From positions 1 through 50,011 of the forward strand of contig OMIE01000093.1 of NCBI GenBank assembly GCA_900299025.1: a DNA stretch of 50,011 nucleotides. Reading direction: 5' to 3'. A program made the position numbers and the translations under genes. Positions 5,464-33,367 of the stretch are shown piece after piece; position 1 is the stretch's first letter, and each line of letters opens with the position of its first letter. Source of the stretch: Burkholderiaceae bacterium. GTDB taxonomy: Bacteria > Pseudomonadota > Gammaproteobacteria > Burkholderiales > Burkholderiaceae_E. The notes under the pieces were generated by a model. It was given only the letters and a program-made list of their open reading frames with translations, did no database searches and was not told the DNA's origin.

Positions 5464-5515
5464 GGTTTTGAATAGCTTGGGCGAAGTTTCCTGCGATACT
5501 AATGGTCACGAGCTG

Positions 5516-16446: not shown

Positions 16447-16962
16447 ATGGCAACTGCCAAGAAGCCTGCCGCAAAGACTGCGGCAAAGAAAGCCGCTGCA
16501 AAGGCTGCAAAGCCAGAGGCAAAGGCCGAAAAGTCGACCACTAAAAAGGCCGCAGCAAAATCCACACCGGTGAAGAAGACTACAGAAGCTGCGGGCAAGA
16601 AAGCAGCGCCAAAGGCTGCTGCTCCTGCTGATAAAGCAGCTAAGAAGCCCGCCGCTTCGAAGGCCGCTAAGCCCGGAAAGCCCGCAGCGAAAAAAGCAGC
16701 CATTAAGCCCGCCGCCGCTGCCAAAGCGGCAGCGAAGTCAACTAAAGCTGCAGCAAAGGCAACGAAGGCCGCAGCAAAGCCGAGCAAAGCAGCTGCTAAA
16801 AAGGCAGTCGCCAAGCCAGCAGTGAAAGAGGCAATCGCAAAGCCTGCGGCAAAAAAAGCAGTAAAGGCCATGAAGACCGCTGCCAAGGCAAAGGCGCCTG
16901 CAAAAGCAGCAGCGAAAAAGGCAGCCCCGGCATGGCCCTTCCCGACGGGTGATAAGCCTTAG
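16447..16962 (+). CDS. Histone H1-like Ala/Lys-rich DNA-binding protein
   Basis: A 171-residue protein composed almost wholly of Ala, Lys, Pro and Thr in irregular repeats such as AAKKA, KPAAKKA and KAAAK. It resembles the C-terminal domain of eukaryotic histone H1 and bacterial homologues such as BpH1 of Bordetella, which bind DNA non-specifically and compact the nucleoid. It has no globular domain. The tail ends with a hydrophobic AWPFPTGDKP motif that I recall in betaproteobacterial members. ATG 16447 follows AAAAAGGAG, an excellent ribosome site, suggesting high expression. Low-complexity repeats make length variation between strains likely. Polyhydroxyalkanoate-granule phasins (PhaF type) share such tails but carry an N-terminal phasin domain that is absent here. 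Confidence 0.88.
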   Translation: MATAKKPAAKTAAKKAAAKAAKPEAKAEKSTTKKAAAKSTPVKKTTEAAGKKAAPKAAAPADKAAKKPAASKAAKPGKPAAKKAAIKPAAAAKAAAKSTKAAAKATKAAAKPSKAAAKKAVAKPAVKEAIAKPAAKKAVKAMKTAAKAKAPAKAAAKKAAPAWPFPTGDKP

Positions 16963-24181: not shown

Positions 24182-26253
24182 GTAAAGATCAGACCAACGC
24201 CGCGCAGGTCCATGGCAGCGGGCCTTTTGCTCTTTTTGAAGAAGAAGGGCAATTACGCTGCGGCAAATTGCTTGCCGAAGCGCCGGCAAGTGTGCAGATC
24301 GAGCAAGCCAGTGGTCGACGCAGCAAAGTTAAACAAAACCACATGTTTATGCGATTTTCGCAACCTGGACCGCAAGACTTGCTGGTCCAGGCTAAAGCGA
24401 TGGCTGCTGAGCTCGATGTGGCTTTTATTTGGGAAACCTGCAACCAAGAAATCGCTGGTGACCTCGACTTCATGACTCTGGCAAGTGAGTACTTTGGCAG
24501 CGGCCCAAATGCAGTTCAAGCCTGCGCTATGCTCATATGCCTGCAAGAGGCACCGATTTGGTTTTTGCGTCGCGGACGGGGGCTTTTTCGCCCCCAGCCA
24601 CGTGAGCAAATCGATCGCGCCTTGCAAGCGCTCGAACGACGACGTCAGCAAGATGAGATGGTCCAAGCCTGGGCTGGCTCGTTAGCGCAAGATCAATGGC
24701 CTCATGATTGGCTTGACCCTCAGGGCCCAGTGGGGTTGGTGCGCCCTATTGCGCTCTTATTAAAGCCAGACAAACAATCATTGGCCTATCGAGCCATCGA
24801 TGCGGCTTGCAAAGCGCGGCAGTTATCGCCGGCGCGGCTGCTCTTAGCCTGCGGCCAATTTGCCACCCCACTGCAATTGCATCAGGAGCTCTTTGCACAA
24901 GAGCATTTCCCGAAAGGGCTCGATGCGGCCTTTCCTCAAGTCGAACTCGAAAGGGCAATCGCATCGCTCCTGTTGCATATCAATACCCTCGACCAAGCAG
25001 CTGTCGAAGCGTTTTCAATTGACGATTCGAGCACCACGGAGATCGACGACGCACTGTCCTTAAGCATTAGCTACGCGGCCGATGGGCAGACCATCAACGA
25101 GCTTAGCCTTGGTGTGCATATTGCAGTCCCGGCCTTGTTGCTCACACCTGAAAGTCGCTGGGATGCGATGGCCAGGGAGCGGATGTCAACCGTGTATGCG
25201 CCGGGTCAGAAAATCCAAATGCTTCCTGAGGCGATCGTGCGTTGCTTTTCGCTCGATGAAGGCAAGCTTTGCCCAGCGCTGTCGCTTTACGTTCGCTTTA
25301 ACGGGCAATGCGAGGTCGTGGGGGAAGAGACTAAACTTGAACGGGTCAAGATACGCGCCAACTTACGCCACGACCAACTTGAAAGCAGCATTGATGAGCA
25401 AGTGATTGAGGACTGGGAGCGTGCGGTTTGGCCAAAGGCCGTGCTTGCCGAGGATTTGATGCAAGCGCTTGGACAACTATGGCGAATCAGCAAGCGACTC
25501 CAGGCCGAGCGTGAAACCGTGCGGGGGCGGCCTGAACCTCGGTTTCGGAGCGACTTTCACTTTCGTATTCAAGACGATCGGGTTGAGATCGAGCAACGTC
25601 GTCGCGATGCACCATTAGATCGAATCGTTGCTGAGATGATGATTTTGGCCAACTCACGATGGGGGCGATGGGTCGCACTCAATCGGTTGCCAGCGATTTT
25701 TCGCTCGCAGTCGATGGGTCGCGCACGCATGACCACCCACCCCATTGCGCATCAAGGTCTAGGCGTTGGGCAATACCTGTGGGCTACTTCGCCCTTGCGC
25801 CGGTATGCCGATCTCGTGAATCAACGGCAATTGCTCGCTCTGGCCACTCGCCAACGTCCGCCGTTCAGCCAGGAAAGCGCCGATTTGCATCGGGTGATTG
25901 CGGGCTTTGATGCGCGCTATGATGCTTATAACGATTACCAGAACAGCATGGAGCGCTACTGGTCCATGCGCTGGGTCGAGCAAATGCAGCCCGAGGGTGC
26001 TGAACGCCCCTTGCGCTTTCGCGCTATTGCCCTACGCGAACAACGCGCTCGTTTGAGAGATGCGCCTTTGGTATTCGCACTCCCCGATATGCCGGATGGG
26101 CATGCAGGTCGAGGCCTGTGGGTTGAGTTTGTGAAGATGGATGGGCTTGATTTATCGATCGAAGTTCGCATGTTGGCTTGGGACGATGAGCCCAGCGCTG
26201 AATCGGCCGACGGATCTTCTCAAACATCAGGCGATGGGCCGAGCACGAGCTGA
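24178..26253 (+). CDS. RNase II-family exoribonuclease (RNB domain)
   Basis: 3'-5' hydrolytic exoribonuclease of the RNB family, 691 residues. Catalytic acidic cluster FSIDDSSTTEIDDALSLS lies at about 279-296, with the conserved Asp spacing for two Mg ions. Supporting segments are SRWDAMARERMSTVYAPG, an EMMILANSRWGRW helix, and YLWATSPLRRYADLVNQRQL (RNB C-terminal motif, Arg involved in catalysis). The N-terminal part (FALFEEEGQLRCGKLL...GRRSKVKQNH) matches betaproteobacterial RNase II-like proteins rather than RNase R, as no clear S1 domain or basic tail is seen. Start TTG 24178 overlaps the mpl stop (TTGA) and has GAGG 5 bases upstream, so translation is coupled. The C-terminus is Ser/Asp-rich. 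Confidence 0.9.
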   Translation: MSKDQTNAAQVHGSGPFALFEEEGQLRCGKLLAEAPASVQIEQASGRRSKVKQNHMFMRFSQPGPQDLLVQAKAMAAELDVAFIWETCNQEIAGDLDFMTLASEYFGSGPNAVQACAMLICLQEAPIWFLRRGRGLFRPQPREQIDRALQALERRRQQDEMVQAWAGSLAQDQWPHDWLDPQGPVGLVRPIALLLKPDKQSLAYRAIDAACKARQLSPARLLLACGQFATPLQLHQELFAQEHFPKGLDAAFPQVELERAIASLLLHINTLDQAAVEAFSIDDSSTTEIDDALSLSISYAADGQTINELSLGVHIAVPALLLTPESRWDAMARERMSTVYAPGQKIQMLPEAIVRCFSLDEGKLCPALSLYVRFNGQCEVVGEETKLERVKIRANLRHDQLESSIDEQVIEDWERAVWPKAVLAEDLMQALGQLWRISKRLQAERETVRGRPEPRFRSDFHFRIQDDRVEIEQRRRDAPLDRIVAEMMILANSRWGRWVALNRLPAIFRSQSMGRARMTTHPIAHQGLGVGQYLWATSPLRRYADLVNQRQLLALATRQRPPFSQESADLHRVIAGFDARYDAYNDYQNSMERYWSMRWVEQMQPEGAERPLRFRAIALREQRARLRDAPLVFALPDMPDGHAGRGLWVEFVKMDGLDLSIEVRMLAWDDEPSAESADGSSQTSGDGPSTS

Positions 26254-27976: not shown

Positions 27977-28658
27977 ACGATCGTTTTCGCTGACGTCAAT
28001 CTTGGTTCGCCTCGGGCTCATTTTTTTCGGATTGTTTTGCTTCGTTCAATGCTTTTATTTTGTACAGGTTTTATGGTTCCGTTTCGTTGATCCGGAGCAA
28101 AGCGCATTCATGGCCGAGCAGGCAAAGCAGGTGCCGATGATCAAACATCATCCGGTCGCTTATCAGCGCATCGCAGTGCACTTAAAGCGTGCGGTTATTG
28201 CCGCCGAAGATCAGCGTTTTGAGAAACACGATGGGATTGACTGGGAGGCGATTGAAAAGGCTTGGATGCATAACCGCGATAAAGGCCGCGTCGTCCGCGG
28301 TGGATCAACGATCACCCAACAGCTCGCCAAAAATCTTTTTTTATCGGGTGAGCGCAGCTATTGGCGCAAGGCACAGGAGGCCTTGATCACGCTGATGATT
28401 GAAGCTGTTATGGATAAGCAACGCATCTTGCATCTTTATTTGAATTACGCTGAATGGGGCGTGGGTGTGTTTGGAGCTCAGGCAGCGGCACAGCATTACT
28501 TCGGTATTCCAGCCTCTCAGCTCAATGCTTATCAAGCGGCGCGTCTCGCTGCGATGTTGCCACGGCCTCGCCACTACGACAAACATCGCGATTCGGCTTT
28601 TCTTGCCTCACGAACCGAATTTGTTTTGCGCTGGATGCCGCAAATGCAGCTGCCTTGA
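27966..28658 (+). CDS. mtgA: Monofunctional biosynthetic peptidoglycan transglycosylase
   Basis: MtgA polymerises lipid II into glycan strands at the outer face of the inner membrane. A single N-terminal anchor (LVRLGLIFFGLFCFVQCFYF, about 12-31) precedes a GT51 domain with the catalytic Glu in IAAEDQRFEKHDGIDW at about 78, GGSTITQQLAKNLFLS at about 115, and the second Glu in LYLNYAEWGVGVFGAQAAA at about 158. The segment AARLAAMLPRPRHYDKHRD ends the domain. No transpeptidase domain follows, which separates it from class A PBPs. 230 residues is the usual length. It starts inside the end of aroE. Confidence 0.96.
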   Translation: MGNRRSFSLTSILVRLGLIFFGLFCFVQCFYFVQVLWFRFVDPEQSAFMAEQAKQVPMIKHHPVAYQRIAVHLKRAVIAAEDQRFEKHDGIDWEAIEKAWMHNRDKGRVVRGGSTITQQLAKNLFLSGERSYWRKAQEALITLMIEAVMDKQRILHLYLNYAEWGVGVFGAQAAAQHYFGIPASQLNAYQAARLAAMLPRPRHYDKHRDSAFLASRTEFVLRWMPQMQLP

Positions 28659-28728
28659 AACGCTAGTGCCAAGCGATTATCGATTCGTGCATCAGAATGC
28701 TCAGTAGGCCTAATTTGGAGGAAGCAAC

Positions 28729-29640
28729 GTGGGGATGATGCAAGATAAGGTTGTTATTGTGACGGGAGCCGGTGGCGGCATTGGTCGTGCGATCGCTTTG
28801 GCCATGGCAGCAGAAGGAGCCAAAGTGCTCGTCAATGATATTGGCGCTAGCGTGAGCGGCGAAGGCAATGACCAAGGCCCAGCGGCAGCTGTGGTCTCGG
28901 AGATCGCCGCGCTAGGTGGTCAGGCGTTTGCCAATACGGATTCAGTTGCCGATGCAGCAGGTGCTCAGCGGATTGTTGATGCTGCGCTAGCGCGTTTTGG
29001 TCGTTTAGACGCGGTGGTCAATAACGCAGGCATATTGCGTGATCGTTTCTTTTTTAAGATGAGTAACGATGATTTTGATGCCGTCATCAAAGTACATCTT
29101 TATGGCAGTTAGTACGTGAGTCGTGCTGCGGCTAATCTCTTCAAAGAGCAGCAGTCAGGCGCATTCGTGCACATGACATCAACCTCAGGTCTGATTGGCA
29201 ACCTGGGTCAGGCCAATTATGCTGCGGCAAAATTGGCCCTGGTGGCATTGTCTAAATCGATTGCGCTTGACATGGCGCGTTATCAGGTACGATCAAATTG
29301 TATAGCGCCATTCGCATGGAGCCGGATGATTGGTTCGATCCCAACCGACACCCCAGAACAAAAGGCCCGAGTCGCCAAGATCCAGCAAATGACACCAGAG
29401 AAAATCGCACCGATTGCAGTCTACTTAGCGAGCGATGCGGCAAGTAAGGTCAACGCTCAAGTTTTTGCGGTCCGCAACAATGAAATCTTTTTGATGAGCC
29501 AGCCTCGACCGATACGATCAGTGCATCGTTCTGAAGGCTGGAATCCACAATCCGTTGCTGAGCATGCCATGCCAGCCCTGCAAGCTGACTTTTTGGGGAT
29601 GGAGCGTTCGGGCGATGTCTTCACATGGGATCCGGTATGA
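28729..29640 (+). pseudogene. MFE-2-like 3-hydroxyacyl-CoA dehydrogenase (SDR) interrupted by TAG
   Basis: The intact reading frame would encode an SDR of about 303 residues, related to the dehydrogenase part of peroxisomal multifunctional enzyme 2. The cofactor motif VTGAGGGIGRAIAL, NNAGILRDRFFFKMS and VIKVHLYGS are followed by TAG at 29110-29112, then by YVSRAAANLF in the same frame, without insertion or deletion. The catalytic YAAAK lies after the stop, so the truncated product would be inactive. The downstream part (HMTSTSGLIGN, NCIAPFAWSRMIGSIP, QPRPIRSVHRSEGW) is otherwise well preserved. Start is GTG 28729 with GGAGG 7 bases before. One base change from Trp (TGG) or Tyr (TAT/TAC) explains it. 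A MaoC hydratase follows with an ATGA overlap. It could be a recent pseudogene, a suppressed codon or a sequencing error. Confidence 0.8.
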
Positions 29641-30521
29641 GCCAAATGTTTGATGCACAACGCCTTCGTGACTGGGCGTTTGAGCCTATTCGTCATCGTT
29701 ATAGCGAACGCGACACCATGCTCTATGCGCTTTCGCTCGGTGCTGGTATGGATCCTTGTGATGAGCAAGCCTTAAGGCTTTGCTACGAAGACAGGCTCCA
29801 GGCTCTGCCAACCATGGCGGTCGTTCTCGCCTATCCTGGGTTTTGGGCTAAAAATCCTGCAACCGGTATCAACTGGGTGAAGCTTGTGCACGGCGAACAG
29901 CAACTGCATCTTCACCAAGTCCTGCCAAGTGCTGGTGAGGTGCTGGGCTACAGCCGCGTGACCCATGTGATCGATAAAGGCGCAGATAAGGGTGCATTGA
30001 TGATTAGCGAGCGCAAGGTCTGTGAGGCAAATACGGGCGCTGTCATCGCCACGATGACGCAAACGACCTTTATGCGCGGCGATGGAGGGTTTACCCAGCG
30101 TGGTCAGCGCAGCGATGATGCACCTGCCTCAAGGCCTGCTGTCCCAAGCCGCCCTCCCGATATGAAACATCAGCTCGCAAGCCGGCCCGAATCGGCACTG
30201 CTCTACCGCCTCATGGGGGACTACAACCCACTTCACGCAGATCCGGCAGTGGCAATCGCCGCGGGATTCAAACAGCCCATATTGCATGGGCTTGCAAGCT
30301 TCGGTATCGCTGCGCGGTCATTGATCGAAAGCTGTGCTGAGCGAAATCCCGCAGGCTTGGTCGATATCGGGGTACGATTTTCTTCGCCGGTTTATCCAGG
30401 AGAAACCCTTGAAACCTCGATTTGGAAACTTGATGAGCCAGGAGCCTATGCCTTTCAAACCAAAGTTTTAGAACGTGATTTGATTGTTCTGAGCCATGGA
30501 ACAGCCCGTATTGCTGTATAA
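29637..30521 (+). CDS. MaoC-like 2-enoyl-CoA hydratase (hydratase 2)
   Basis: A double hot-dog-fold (R)-specific enoyl-CoA hydratase of 294 residues. The N-terminal half (about 1-140, YALSLGAGMD...AVVLAYPGFW) is a degenerate hot dog. The C-terminal half has the hydratase-2 motif YRLMGDYNPLHADPAVAIAAGF, split over about 191-212, with Asp and His of the active site, followed by PILHGLASFGIAAR. Such proteins resemble the hydratase domain of MFE-2, complementing the upstream SDR: the pair would hydrate trans-2-enoyl-CoA and oxidise the (3R)-hydroxyacyl-CoA. ATG 29637 overlaps the SDR stop as ATGA, so it normally depends on translation of the now interrupted SDR frame. The frame extends to 29625, but homology does not require it. 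Confidence 0.9.
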   Translation: MSQMFDAQRLRDWAFEPIRHRYSERDTMLYALSLGAGMDPCDEQALRLCYEDRLQALPTMAVVLAYPGFWAKNPATGINWVKLVHGEQQLHLHQVLPSAGEVLGYSRVTHVIDKGADKGALMISERKVCEANTGAVIATMTQTTFMRGDGGFTQRGQRSDDAPASRPAVPSRPPDMKHQLASRPESALLYRLMGDYNPLHADPAVAIAAGFKQPILHGLASFGIAARSLIESCAERNPAGLVDIGVRFSSPVYPGETLETSIWKLDEPGAYAFQTKVLERDLIVLSHGTARIAV

Positions 30522-30543
30522 ATGATAACTAAGGGGAGACCAC

Positions 30544-31569
30544 ATGAAAGATAATCAAAACAGAACGATGATCGGCCAACGAAGAACGTCGCTTAAGCGA
30601 ATTGCGATCGCAGGCGCATCGCTGGCTGCTATGCAAACTCATCCGTTTAGTAGCGCCTGGGCGCAAAACACAGCATCATGGACCTCAAAGCCGATTCGCC
30701 TCTTGGTGGGTTATCCACCGGGCGGGCCGGTTGATCTCGCTGCGCGCTCTTTCGGCGCAACGCTTGAGAAAATCATCGGCCAATCGGTGGTGATCGAAAA
30801 CAAGGGTGGTGCCAGCGGCATGCTTGCTGCGCAAACCATTGCGCAGGCGCCCTCCGATGGATCTTATTTGTTTTTCGCAGCGAGCCCAACGATTTCAATC
30901 GCACCGCACTTGCAAAAGGGCAACAACTTTGACCCCCTGAACCAGCTTGCACCTATTGCTCAGGTGGTCGAGTATGCAAATGTTTTAATGGTCAATAAAG
31001 ATCTTCCTTTTAAAACAGTGTCTGATCTTGTTGCATTTGCCAGGGCTAATCCCGATAAGCTCAGCTTTGGTTCTGCAGGCGTTGGTGGTTCGAATCATTT
31101 ATCGGCAGAACTATTAAAGAAAATGACGCAAACCCAAATGGTGCATGTTCCTTATCGCGGCAATGCACCGGCGATGCTCGATGTGATGGGCGGCAAAATT
31201 GCTTTCATGTTCGATATTGTGATTACCGCCAAGGGCTACCATGAAAGCGGCAAGGCAAGAGCGCTTGCGGTGACCTCCAAAACCCGTAACCGCGCGCTTC
31301 CCGACATTCCGACGATGGTCGAGGCGGGGGTGCCAGGCTTTGATGTCACCGGCTGGTTTGCCCTCTACGGACCGACAAGTCTGAACAGGGATTTAATCGC
31401 GAAAATAAATCAGGCGACTAGGATGAGTTTGTCACAGTCTGCTCTGGTCGGTCGCATGACCGAACTGGGCTTTGAGGTGAAGCACAGTTCGGCCGACGAG
31501 CTTGCAAGCCTTGCAAAAAATGAGCATGGCATGTGGGCTGACGTCATTCGCGGCTTAAAGATCGACTAG
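30544..31569 (+). CDS. Bug/TctC-family periplasmic solute-binding protein
   Basis: Extracytoplasmic receptor of the tripartite tricarboxylate transporter class, 341 residues. A Tat-like signal (Arg13-Arg14 in GQRRTSLKRIAIAG, hydrophobic core, cleavage likely after SSAWAQ) leads to the mature protein starting near SKPIRLLVGYPPGGPVDLAAR, a signature of the family. Other typical parts are GQSVVIENKGGASG, FGSAGVGGSNHLSAELLKKM, VPYRGNAPAMLDVMGG and the DIPTMVEAGVPGFDVTGW region. The ribosome site AAGGGGAG is strong. No membrane subunits (TctA/TctB) are encoded nearby, as is common for the expanded Bug families of Burkholderiales. It sits 22 bp behind the MaoC gene, so its ligand may be a carboxylate fed into that CoA pathway (inference). 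Confidence 0.93.
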   Translation: MKDNQNRTMIGQRRTSLKRIAIAGASLAAMQTHPFSSAWAQNTASWTSKPIRLLVGYPPGGPVDLAARSFGATLEKIIGQSVVIENKGGASGMLAAQTIAQAPSDGSYLFFAASPTISIAPHLQKGNNFDPLNQLAPIAQVVEYANVLMVNKDLPFKTVSDLVAFARANPDKLSFGSAGVGGSNHLSAELLKKMTQTQMVHVPYRGNAPAMLDVMGGKIAFMFDIVITAKGYHESGKARALAVTSKTRNRALPDIPTMVEAGVPGFDVTGWFALYGPTSLNRDLIAKINQATRMSLSQSALVGRMTELGFEVKHSSADELASLAKNEHGMWADVIRGLKID

Positions 31570-31590
31570 GGTGGCTTAAAGATCGACTAG
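31552..31590. repeat. 18-bp direct repeat across the stop codons of convergent genes
   Basis: GGCTTAAAGATCGACTAG occurs at 31552-31569 and again at 31573-31590, with GGT between (21-bp period). The first copy ends with the Bug-gene stop TAG. The second contains CTAG, whose minus-strand TAG is the stop of the ABC transporter gene. It is a recent exact tandem duplication at a convergent gene junction. Confidence 0.95.
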
Positions 31591-33356
31591 TTGCCGCTTG
31601 TCTCATGGCCAATAAAGCCGGCCGATTGGCGCTGCCATAAGCTGGCGTAGTGGCCTTTGAGAGCCAGTAGTTGCGCGTGTGTACCCTCTTCGACAATCTT
31701 GCCCTGATCCATGACGAGGATACGGTCCATCCGCGCAAGTGTGGAAAGCCGATGGGCGATAGCGATCACCGTGCGCCCTTTGCACAAACGATCGATTGCG
31801 TCCTGAATCAAGGACTCGGTTTCCGAGTCGAGGGCTGAGGTCGCCTCGTCCAAGATCAGAATCGGTGCATCTTTAACAAAGGCGCGTGCGATGGCGACCC
31901 TTTGGCGCTCGCCACCCGAGAGTCGTACACCGCGTTCACCGACAATCACATCAAAACCCTCGGGTCGATTGTTAATGAAAGCTTCGCAGTGCGCAGCTTT
32001 AGCGGCTTCCCACAAGCAAGCTTCACTGGCTTCAGGCTTTGCGTAGGCAATATTTTCCCGCAGGCTGCGATGAAAAAGTGCCGGGTCTTGCGGCACATCA
32101 GCAATCCCTAGGTTCAGTGAGTCGATCGTGACGGTGGCAATGTCCTGGCCGTCGATCAAGATCCGTCCCGAACTCACATCGTAGTAGCGGCGAATAAGCT
32201 TGGTAAGCGTGCTTTTTCCTGCACCCGATGGGCCAACCAAACCGATGCGTTCGCCAGCACGAATATGCAAGTCGAGGTCTCGAAATAAGTGATCGCCGCT
32301 ACGATATTGATAACTGACTTTCTCAAAACGTATTTCACCGCCGCGCACTTGAAGTGGTTTTGCGTCGATAGCTTCAAGGATGTCGTGGGGTTTTGCAATC
32401 ACTGCTAATGCCGCCCCAAGAATGCCTACTTGCTCGAAAAACCCAACCAATTGCCCTGAAAGCGCCCATACGTTGGTGACAAGAATCGCCGCAAGCGATA
32501 TCACCATGACCACATCGCCAACACCCATGAGGCCTTTCAAAAAGGCGTCGATCCCCATGGCAATAAAGGCGCACTGAAAGGCAAGCAGGGCCGTGTACAT
32601 TACAAGCATCATCCAGAGCAAGAATCGCCTTGTGTTCATCGAGGCGCCGCGCTCGGATCGCAGCGAATCGAGCACGCGCAAGCGCTCGCTCAATCGCTTG
32701 GCGTTACCTCGAACCACGTCCATGTGGGTGTTGATGTCGACAAGCACCCCAGTGGAAGCTGACATCTCCTCGCCGAAGGCCTTAAACAAGGGCACGCAGC
32801 GGCGGGGGAACCACATCGAAAGGCCAACAAAGCCGACCAGCCAGAACAAAAAAACCCAGAAAAAATAGCTCGGAGCCGCGGCAAGGACAATGAAAGACAT
32901 CAAGATCGCAACGACCATGCGGATAAAGCCGTCAAAGACGATGCTCAAGAGCGCGACCGACGCAGTGCCGGCTTGCTTGACCTTTTGCCCGAGGCTTCCC
33001 GCCAAATGATCCTGAAAAAAGCGTGGTGCATGCTGATCAAGCCAGTGATAAACCTCGACTTGAGCTTGTAGTCGTAACTCAGGCGCTGTATACAAATCAA
33101 CCCACTCGCGGATTCGGTTACATGTCGCCGAGCCAAACCAGACCGCTGCGATGAGGGCAAATAGTTGCCAAATGTTTTCAGCTTCTGTCTCGTTGGCTCT
33201 GAGCGCGTCAATTAAATCGCGCATGAGGATTGGTTCAAAGCCCATGAGGCCGATGCCGCCAGCCGCGAAAAGGGCGAGCGCAAAGGTTCGGTAGCGAAAC
33301 TGTCGCCACAAGATACCGAAGAAAAATGGATAGGGCTTAAGCGGAACAGCGGTCAA
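31587..33356 (-). CDS. ABC transporter, fused permease and ATP-binding protein
   Basis: A type I exporter half-transporter of about 589 residues, MsbA/LapB-like in layout. The membrane domain has about six helices (TFALALFAAGGIGLMGF, IAAVWFGSATC, MVVAILMSFIVLAAAPSYFFWVFLFWLVGF in two helices, LLWMMLVMYTALLAFQCAF, VVMVISLAAILVTNV). The nucleotide-binding domain has Walker A GPSGAGKSTLTKLI (about 378), the Q loop DVPQDPALF, signature RLSGGERQRVAIARAF (about 477), Walker B ILILDEATSALD and the H-loop AHRLST. The frame starts at TTG 33389, inside moaC; TTG 33356 has AGG at 7 bases and avoids the overlap, so I prefer it. The transported substrate is unknown. Confidence 0.9.
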   Translation of the reverse strand: MTAVPLKPYPFFFGILWRQFRYRTFALALFAAGGIGLMGFEPILMRDLIDALRANETEAENIWQLFALIAAVWFGSATCNRIREWVDLYTAPELRLQAQVEVYHWLDQHAPRFFQDHLAGSLGQKVKQAGTASVALLSIVFDGFIRMVVAILMSFIVLAAAPSYFFWVFLFWLVGFVGLSMWFPRRCVPLFKAFGEEMSASTGVLVDINTHMDVVRGNAKRLSERLRVLDSLRSERGASMNTRRFLLWMMLVMYTALLAFQCAFIAMGIDAFLKGLMGVGDVVMVISLAAILVTNVWALSGQLVGFFEQVGILGAALAVIAKPHDILEAIDAKPLQVRGGEIRFEKVSYQYRSGDHLFRDLDLHIRAGERIGLVGPSGAGKSTLTKLIRRYYDVSSGRILIDGQDIATVTIDSLNLGIADVPQDPALFHRSLRENIAYAKPEASEACLWEAAKAAHCEAFINNRPEGFDVIVGERGVRLSGGERQRVAIARAFVKDAPILILDEATSALDSETESLIQDAIDRLCKGRTVIAIAHRLSTLARMDRILVMDQGKIVEEGTHAQLLALKGHYASLWQRQSAGFIGHETSGN

Positions 33357-33367
33357 CGAATCACCTG

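Follow-up and report, generated by a model that had tools for sequence, protein, structure and literature searches.

The DNA analyzed here is a stretch of 50,011 bases, hereafter the window, taken from a draft assembly of 180 contigs (G000). On its forward strand lies a dehydrogenase-like frame whose translation is interrupted by a single stop, a TAG at codon 128 of 303, past which the same frame stays open, with zero frameshift, up to the TGA at 29638-29640. The TAG sits inside one Pfam SDR domain, PF13561, which covers residues 13-248 of the read-through frame. The initial annotation of this DNA had described a family-like, unshifted frame on both sides of the TAG, with the catalytic YxxxK downstream, and both points hold, as one SDR domain crosses the stop and a YAAAK motif follows it. 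Since the TAG precedes this motif, a product terminated there would be devoid of it. The C-terminal ORF beyond the TAG, for its part, does not include the N-terminal nucleotide-binding motif. The features of the locus are collected in Table 1, together with three further interrupted genes that are considered below.

Table 1. Features of the interrupted dehydrogenase locus and other genes of G000 with in-frame stops. Coordinates refer to the window unless a locus or contig is given.
Feature	Coordinates	Strand	Basis or remark
SDR-family (3R)-hydroxyacyl-CoA-dehydrogenase-like gene, interrupted	28729-29640	+	PF13561/PF00106 across the stop; best PDB match 2et6
In-frame TAG, codon 128	29110-29112	+	Tyr in G001 and G002; aromatic in 102/102 other listed loci
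GGAGGA, ribosome-binding-site-like, ahead of GTG 28729	28717-28722	+	sequence
Catalytic YAAAK, residues 164-168, downstream of the stop	29218-29232	+	motif in read-through frame
C-terminal part, translatable upon a ribosomal restart at GTG 29116	29116-29640	+	ORF list
MaoC / MFE-2 hydratase-2-like gene	29637-30521	+	PF01575 and PF22622; ATGA overlap with the SDR stop
Block SDR-MaoC-TctC-like-ABC exporter, missing at the same place in G003	~28659-33367		G003 contig 11
Cytochrome b, in-frame TAG	L241:7123-8523, stop L241:8263 (G000 contig 66, 107123-108523)		C-terminal domain interrupted
PhoU-like/DUF47 gene, in-frame TAA	L250:9521-10183, stop L250:9872 (G000 contig 129)		inside PF01865
TrkH, in-frame TAG	L277:3787-5280, stop L277:4525 (G000 contig 55)		inside TrkH

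The read-through frame exceeds the curated Pfam cut-offs for both PF13561 (139.5 bits) and PF00106 (138.1 bits), which places it in the SDR superfamily, and the SDR motifs TGxxxGxG, NNAG and YxxxK are found at residues 12, 98 and 164, respectively. Among proteins of solved structure, the nearest sequence match is 2et6, the yeast MFE-2 dehydrogenase (E 1.2e-97), and the top ranks of the best 60 of 622 PDB matches are held by 2et6, 1gz6 and 1zbq, all MFE-2 dehydrogenases, in line with the family originally proposed for the gene. Among the best 25 of 209 matched NCBIfam models, none passed its own cut-off, the top one being PRK07791 with 275.2 of 373 bits. In MFE-2, or D-bifunctional protein, a dehydrogenase and a hydratase are fused in one protein. 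The window gene resembles the dehydrogenase part in that the alignment extends over residues 5-248 (2et6) or 6-276 (1gz6), in that TGxxxGIG, NNAG and YxxxK are all there and in that the adjacent ORF, whose possible start, ATG 29637, overlaps the dehydrogenase TGA as ATGA, specifies a MaoC/MFE-2 hydratase-like protein. It differs in that the dehydrogenase and the hydratase are encoded by separate genes and, unlike 2et6, 1gz6 and 1zbq, in having a stop ahead of the catalytic residues. Judging by these similarities, the gene product is probably an MFE-2-like SDR that would catalyze the (3R)-hydroxyacyl-CoA dehydrogenase step, paired with the adjacent MaoC hydratase.

For codon 128, we compared 103 loci, namely the window gene and 102 others, in a sample that includes the best 80 of a longer match list. 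As two pairs among the 102 are identical in sequence (L004/L033 and L005/L055), these correspond to 100 distinct loci, and all 100 listed carry an aromatic residue at this position (Tyr in 65, Phe in 34 and Trp in 1). In G001 and G002, the two congeners possessing the gene, the residue is Tyr. None of the 102 listed related loci has a stop at codon 128 or anywhere else in the aligned stretch, which for L007 covers residues 1-236 only. The window gene, as read from the draft assembly, thus carries a disabling lesion that is absent from its orthologues. The proposal that a single change from Trp or Tyr explains the TAG, for which a look at sister genomes had been recommended, is borne out by the Tyr of the two congeners.

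Two codons 3' of the TAG, at codon 130 (window 29116), the window has Val and both congeners have Met; Val is found at this position in 71 of the 102 listed relatives. The GTG at 29116 raises the thought of a split gene, in which ribosomes would restart at this codon and the two halves would assemble. This is very hard to credit, as no purine-rich, ribosome-binding motif is found in the sequence directly upstream of this GTG, as the congeners have ATG at the same codon, such that the window start is the weaker one (yet Val is common among the listed relatives), and as none of the 102 listed loci is split.

The selection acting on the gene was considered on either side of the stop. Between the window gene and that of G002, the nearest sister, we counted 40 synonymous and 6 amino-acid changes (the TAG codon was not counted), with a dN/dS of 0.042 before the stop and 0.041 after it, so that no relaxed selection is seen downstream of the stop in this comparison, as it would be in an established pseudogene. 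Nor was any second lesion found in the dehydrogenase gene. Such equal and very low values show the stop to be either of recent origin, an artefact or read through, which are the three options (a very recent pseudogene, a base error or readthrough) that the initial annotation had offered. With G001 as the outgroup, codons 1-236 have 17 synonymous changes on the window branch, and amino-acid-changing counts of 2/7 after the stop and 1/13 before it do not differ (Fisher p 0.27). For codons 129-303, neutrality over the window branch predicts approximately 40 amino-acid changes, against an observed maximum of 3. A dead gene would therefore imply a stop younger than about 20% of the window branch, or 26% when only G001-polarised codons are used. 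When referring to these window-branch counts, it should be noted that G001 is 98-99% identical to G002 at 28921-29220 and, being apparently recombinant across the dehydrogenase, is not a clean outgroup. The identity of G001 and G002 rises from approximately 62-81% to 85-99% within mtgA, near 28172, and remains high into the dehydrogenase (window 28172-29436; L151, G001 contig 452), a sequence pattern that suggests homologous recombination between species across the mtgA-dehydrogenase segment.

The gene does not belong to every genome of the group. In G003, a congener genome that is 93% complete, only 33 bases separate the mtgA stop from the moaC end on contig 11 (L181 8690-8722), with the flanking gene order kept, and the dehydrogenase, MaoC, TctC-like and ABC genes are all missing from this site. 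Elsewhere in G003, neither a close dehydrogenase match nor a MaoC match was found. The block between mtgA and moaC was either lost in G003 or gained in the others. Close dehydrogenase matches (E <1e-100) are present in 18 of 36 genomes of the same family and in 4 of 24 from elsewhere in the order; not all of these genomes are complete. Given the empty site in G003 and the presence of a close match in only half of the same-family genomes, the gene looks accessory and dispensable.

The remainder of the window was compared with G002, to which 46,015 of the 50,011 bases could be aligned, with 2,344 differences. The window ORFs are open by selection, and testing them on the window side thus informs little on other breaks; hence, we projected in reverse 53 open frames of G002 (>=150 codons) onto the window. 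Nine were flagged, including the dehydrogenase. To judge by coordinates, the remaining eight lie in frames that overlap longer genes or differ near an ORF end, such that no further clear break was found in the window against these 53 frames. In G002, four window ORFs run into a stop, at codons 285, 7, 32 and 200, in all cases at most 32 codons from an ORF end. Length differences between window ORFs and G002 include one of 2 bases near the start of the ORF at 5468 and two gaps (5 and 22 bases, 27 in total) near the start of the ORF at 26141, with all others being multiples of three. Several such in-frame differences fall in a Lys/Ala-rich ORF at 16447-16962 that appears histone H1-like by eye. 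With G001 as the third sequence, 95 amino-acid changes were assigned to the window side and 83 to the G002 side in 11,426 residues, while radical or stop changes numbered 4 and 1, respectively, with one of the 4 lying upstream of a likely start.

Beyond the window, two samples of G000 (384,091 and 280,583 bases, 664,674 in total, or approximately 24% of the genome) were searched for same-frame stops. Candidates came from an open-frame screen, a codon screen, which missed the known dehydrogenase case, and a hexamer screen, which recovers all four cases described here. Outside the window, 83 stops were tested with Pfam (62 from the first sample and 21 from the second), and an overlap filter removed 16, of which 12 were tested. 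The stop count is a lower bound. Of these 83, three lie inside one Pfam domain and 13 have no Pfam match, while many have a domain on one side only; in a subset of 37, none lies inside a domain, 26 have domains on both sides and 11 on one side. The three stops inside a domain interrupt a PhoU-like/DUF47 gene, cytochrome b and TrkH (Table 1). The PhoU-like/DUF47 gene is the sole copy found in G000 and is 99% identical to that of G002; it is intact, with Gln at the stop position, in G001, G002 and G003. No second copy of cytochrome b was found in G000; the counterpart in G003 is uninterrupted and has Leu at the aligned position, and no contig of G001 or G002 covers the site. TrkH is intact with Trp in G001 and G003, G002 having no coverage here; another TrkH of G000, 52% identical, is uninterrupted. 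Counting the window gene, the isolated in-frame stops number four (TAG in three cases, TAA in one), and TGA was not found among them in the approximately 24% of the genome that was covered.

These additional stops bear directly on the possibility that the TAG is a base error, or a minority-variant artefact of the draft assembly, and that the cell has an intact gene. The assembly is in 180 contigs, one base suffices, the TAG is seen in one genome only, selection downstream of it is not relaxed and the three other stops are likewise isolated in genes that are intact in congeners. Moreover, G000 also encodes NADH dehydrogenase and COX1, which makes a defective cytochrome b implausible. An interrupted single cytochrome b in such a genome argues for base errors, alleles present in part of the population or a tolerance of stops, and a stop in a single-copy respiratory gene raises the chance of base errors in particular. 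Against base error, the window stop falls in an apparently dispensable gene, and the changes assigned to the two sides (95 and 83) give no clear excess on the window side, a comparison that is too weak to exclude errors. Altogether, we consider base error to be possible, at odds somewhat short of even.

We also asked how UAG would be decoded in G000. RF1 is encoded by a gene that scores 499 bits, over the cut-off, is free of internal stops and has GGQ in the locus. No CUA anticodon was detected among 37 tRNA genes (Rfam model and ARAGORN), a draft-genome set that misses some expected tRNAs, such as Ile. In this draft, therefore, neither a UAG suppressor tRNA nor a loss of RF1 is seen, and TAG terminates 11 of 39 window ORFs picked by eye from the ORF list. 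As the initial annotation had foreseen from the use of TAG as a true stop by other genes, a general recoding of UAG is made very unlikely by these findings, which also answer its call for a check on amber-suppressor tRNAs. In-frame TAG codons in three conserved genes could be taken as a sign of recoding in G000; the congeners, nonetheless, have Tyr, Leu and Trp at these three sites, and the residues at all four stops differ from one another (Tyr, Leu, Trp and Gln), which does not indicate a fixed recoding. The chance that UAG is recoded is thus very small.

Functional readthrough, with UAG decoded at a useful rate to yield the full-length enzyme at a low level, requires separate consideration. 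The dN/dS remains 0.04 beyond the stop, further conserved genes carry UAG or UAA within their frames and Belinky et al. 2021 describe in-frame stops with dN/dS <1, for which they propose readthrough (PMC7918605). The stop is, however, unique relative to all relatives examined and, as it is not shared with any of them, the low dN/dS was mostly earned before the stop arose. Furthermore, no suppressor tRNA is among the 37, RF1 is present and the RNA fold near the stop is not unusual, with no readthrough-stimulating structure found there (z -1.17, 26 of 200 shuffles being as good). In addition, UAG leaked less than UGA in an E. coli reporter study (PMC11126739). Apart from the low dN/dS, nothing here speaks positively for functional readthrough, which is, accordingly, an unlikely explanation. 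A related proposal is that G000 tolerates in-frame UAR codons in general through leaky termination, owing to an inefficient RF1 or to a suppressor tRNA missing from the assembly, such that cytochrome b, TrkH, DUF47 and the dehydrogenase would all be made at a reduced level. We give this proposal very little weight.

The reading that we tentatively favor, at a probability of about 0.46, is that the TAG is a very young nonsense allele, i.e. a pseudogene at its first step, that arose by recent mutation in the sampled strain or population. One recent base change would have turned a Tyr codon into TAG. RF1 should then stop translation at codon 128 and release a fragment of 127 residues that lacks the catalytic ones, so that no active enzyme would be made. 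In addition, the coupling of MaoC translation may drop, an effect that the initial annotation had proposed and that the ATGA overlap makes plausible. Such a loss would be tolerated because the gene is accessory. In favor of a nonsense allele are the single stop, the frame that is intact on both sides, the Tyr of the congeners, the presence of RF1 and the lack of a CUA tRNA among those detected. Against it, there is no relaxed selection downstream and no second lesion, and the three other isolated stops are explained at least equally well by base errors in a draft of 180 contigs. As the first of these is expected if the event is very recent, the case is classed as a nonsense allele rather than as an established pseudogene. 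The three further stops lowered our probability for a recent mutation from about 0.58 to its present value, while base error went from a clearly less likely reading to one that is nearly equal to it, with dispensability favoring the allele and the three other stops favoring error.

The kind of case is already known, since Belinky et al. 2021 describe short-lived in-frame stops as widespread in bacterial genes (PMC7918605). Isolated nonsense alleles are commonplace, as are base errors in draft genomes. The dehydrogenase resembles their cases in having a single stop flanked on either side by sequence under purifying selection and in the apparently short life of that stop; it differs from their main set, in which the stop is found in at least 2 species, as the TAG is seen in one genome only. 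The case is nonetheless useful, as two intact congeners and one with an empty site allow a bound to be set on the age of the stop, and it should be kept in mind that a low dN/dS beyond a stop is no proof of readthrough when the stop is young. What deserves attention in G000 is the density of the stops rather than their kind: four isolated UAR stops, one of them in a core respiratory gene, lie within about one quarter of the genome, and may reflect either a high error load in a public draft or a rare tolerance of stops.
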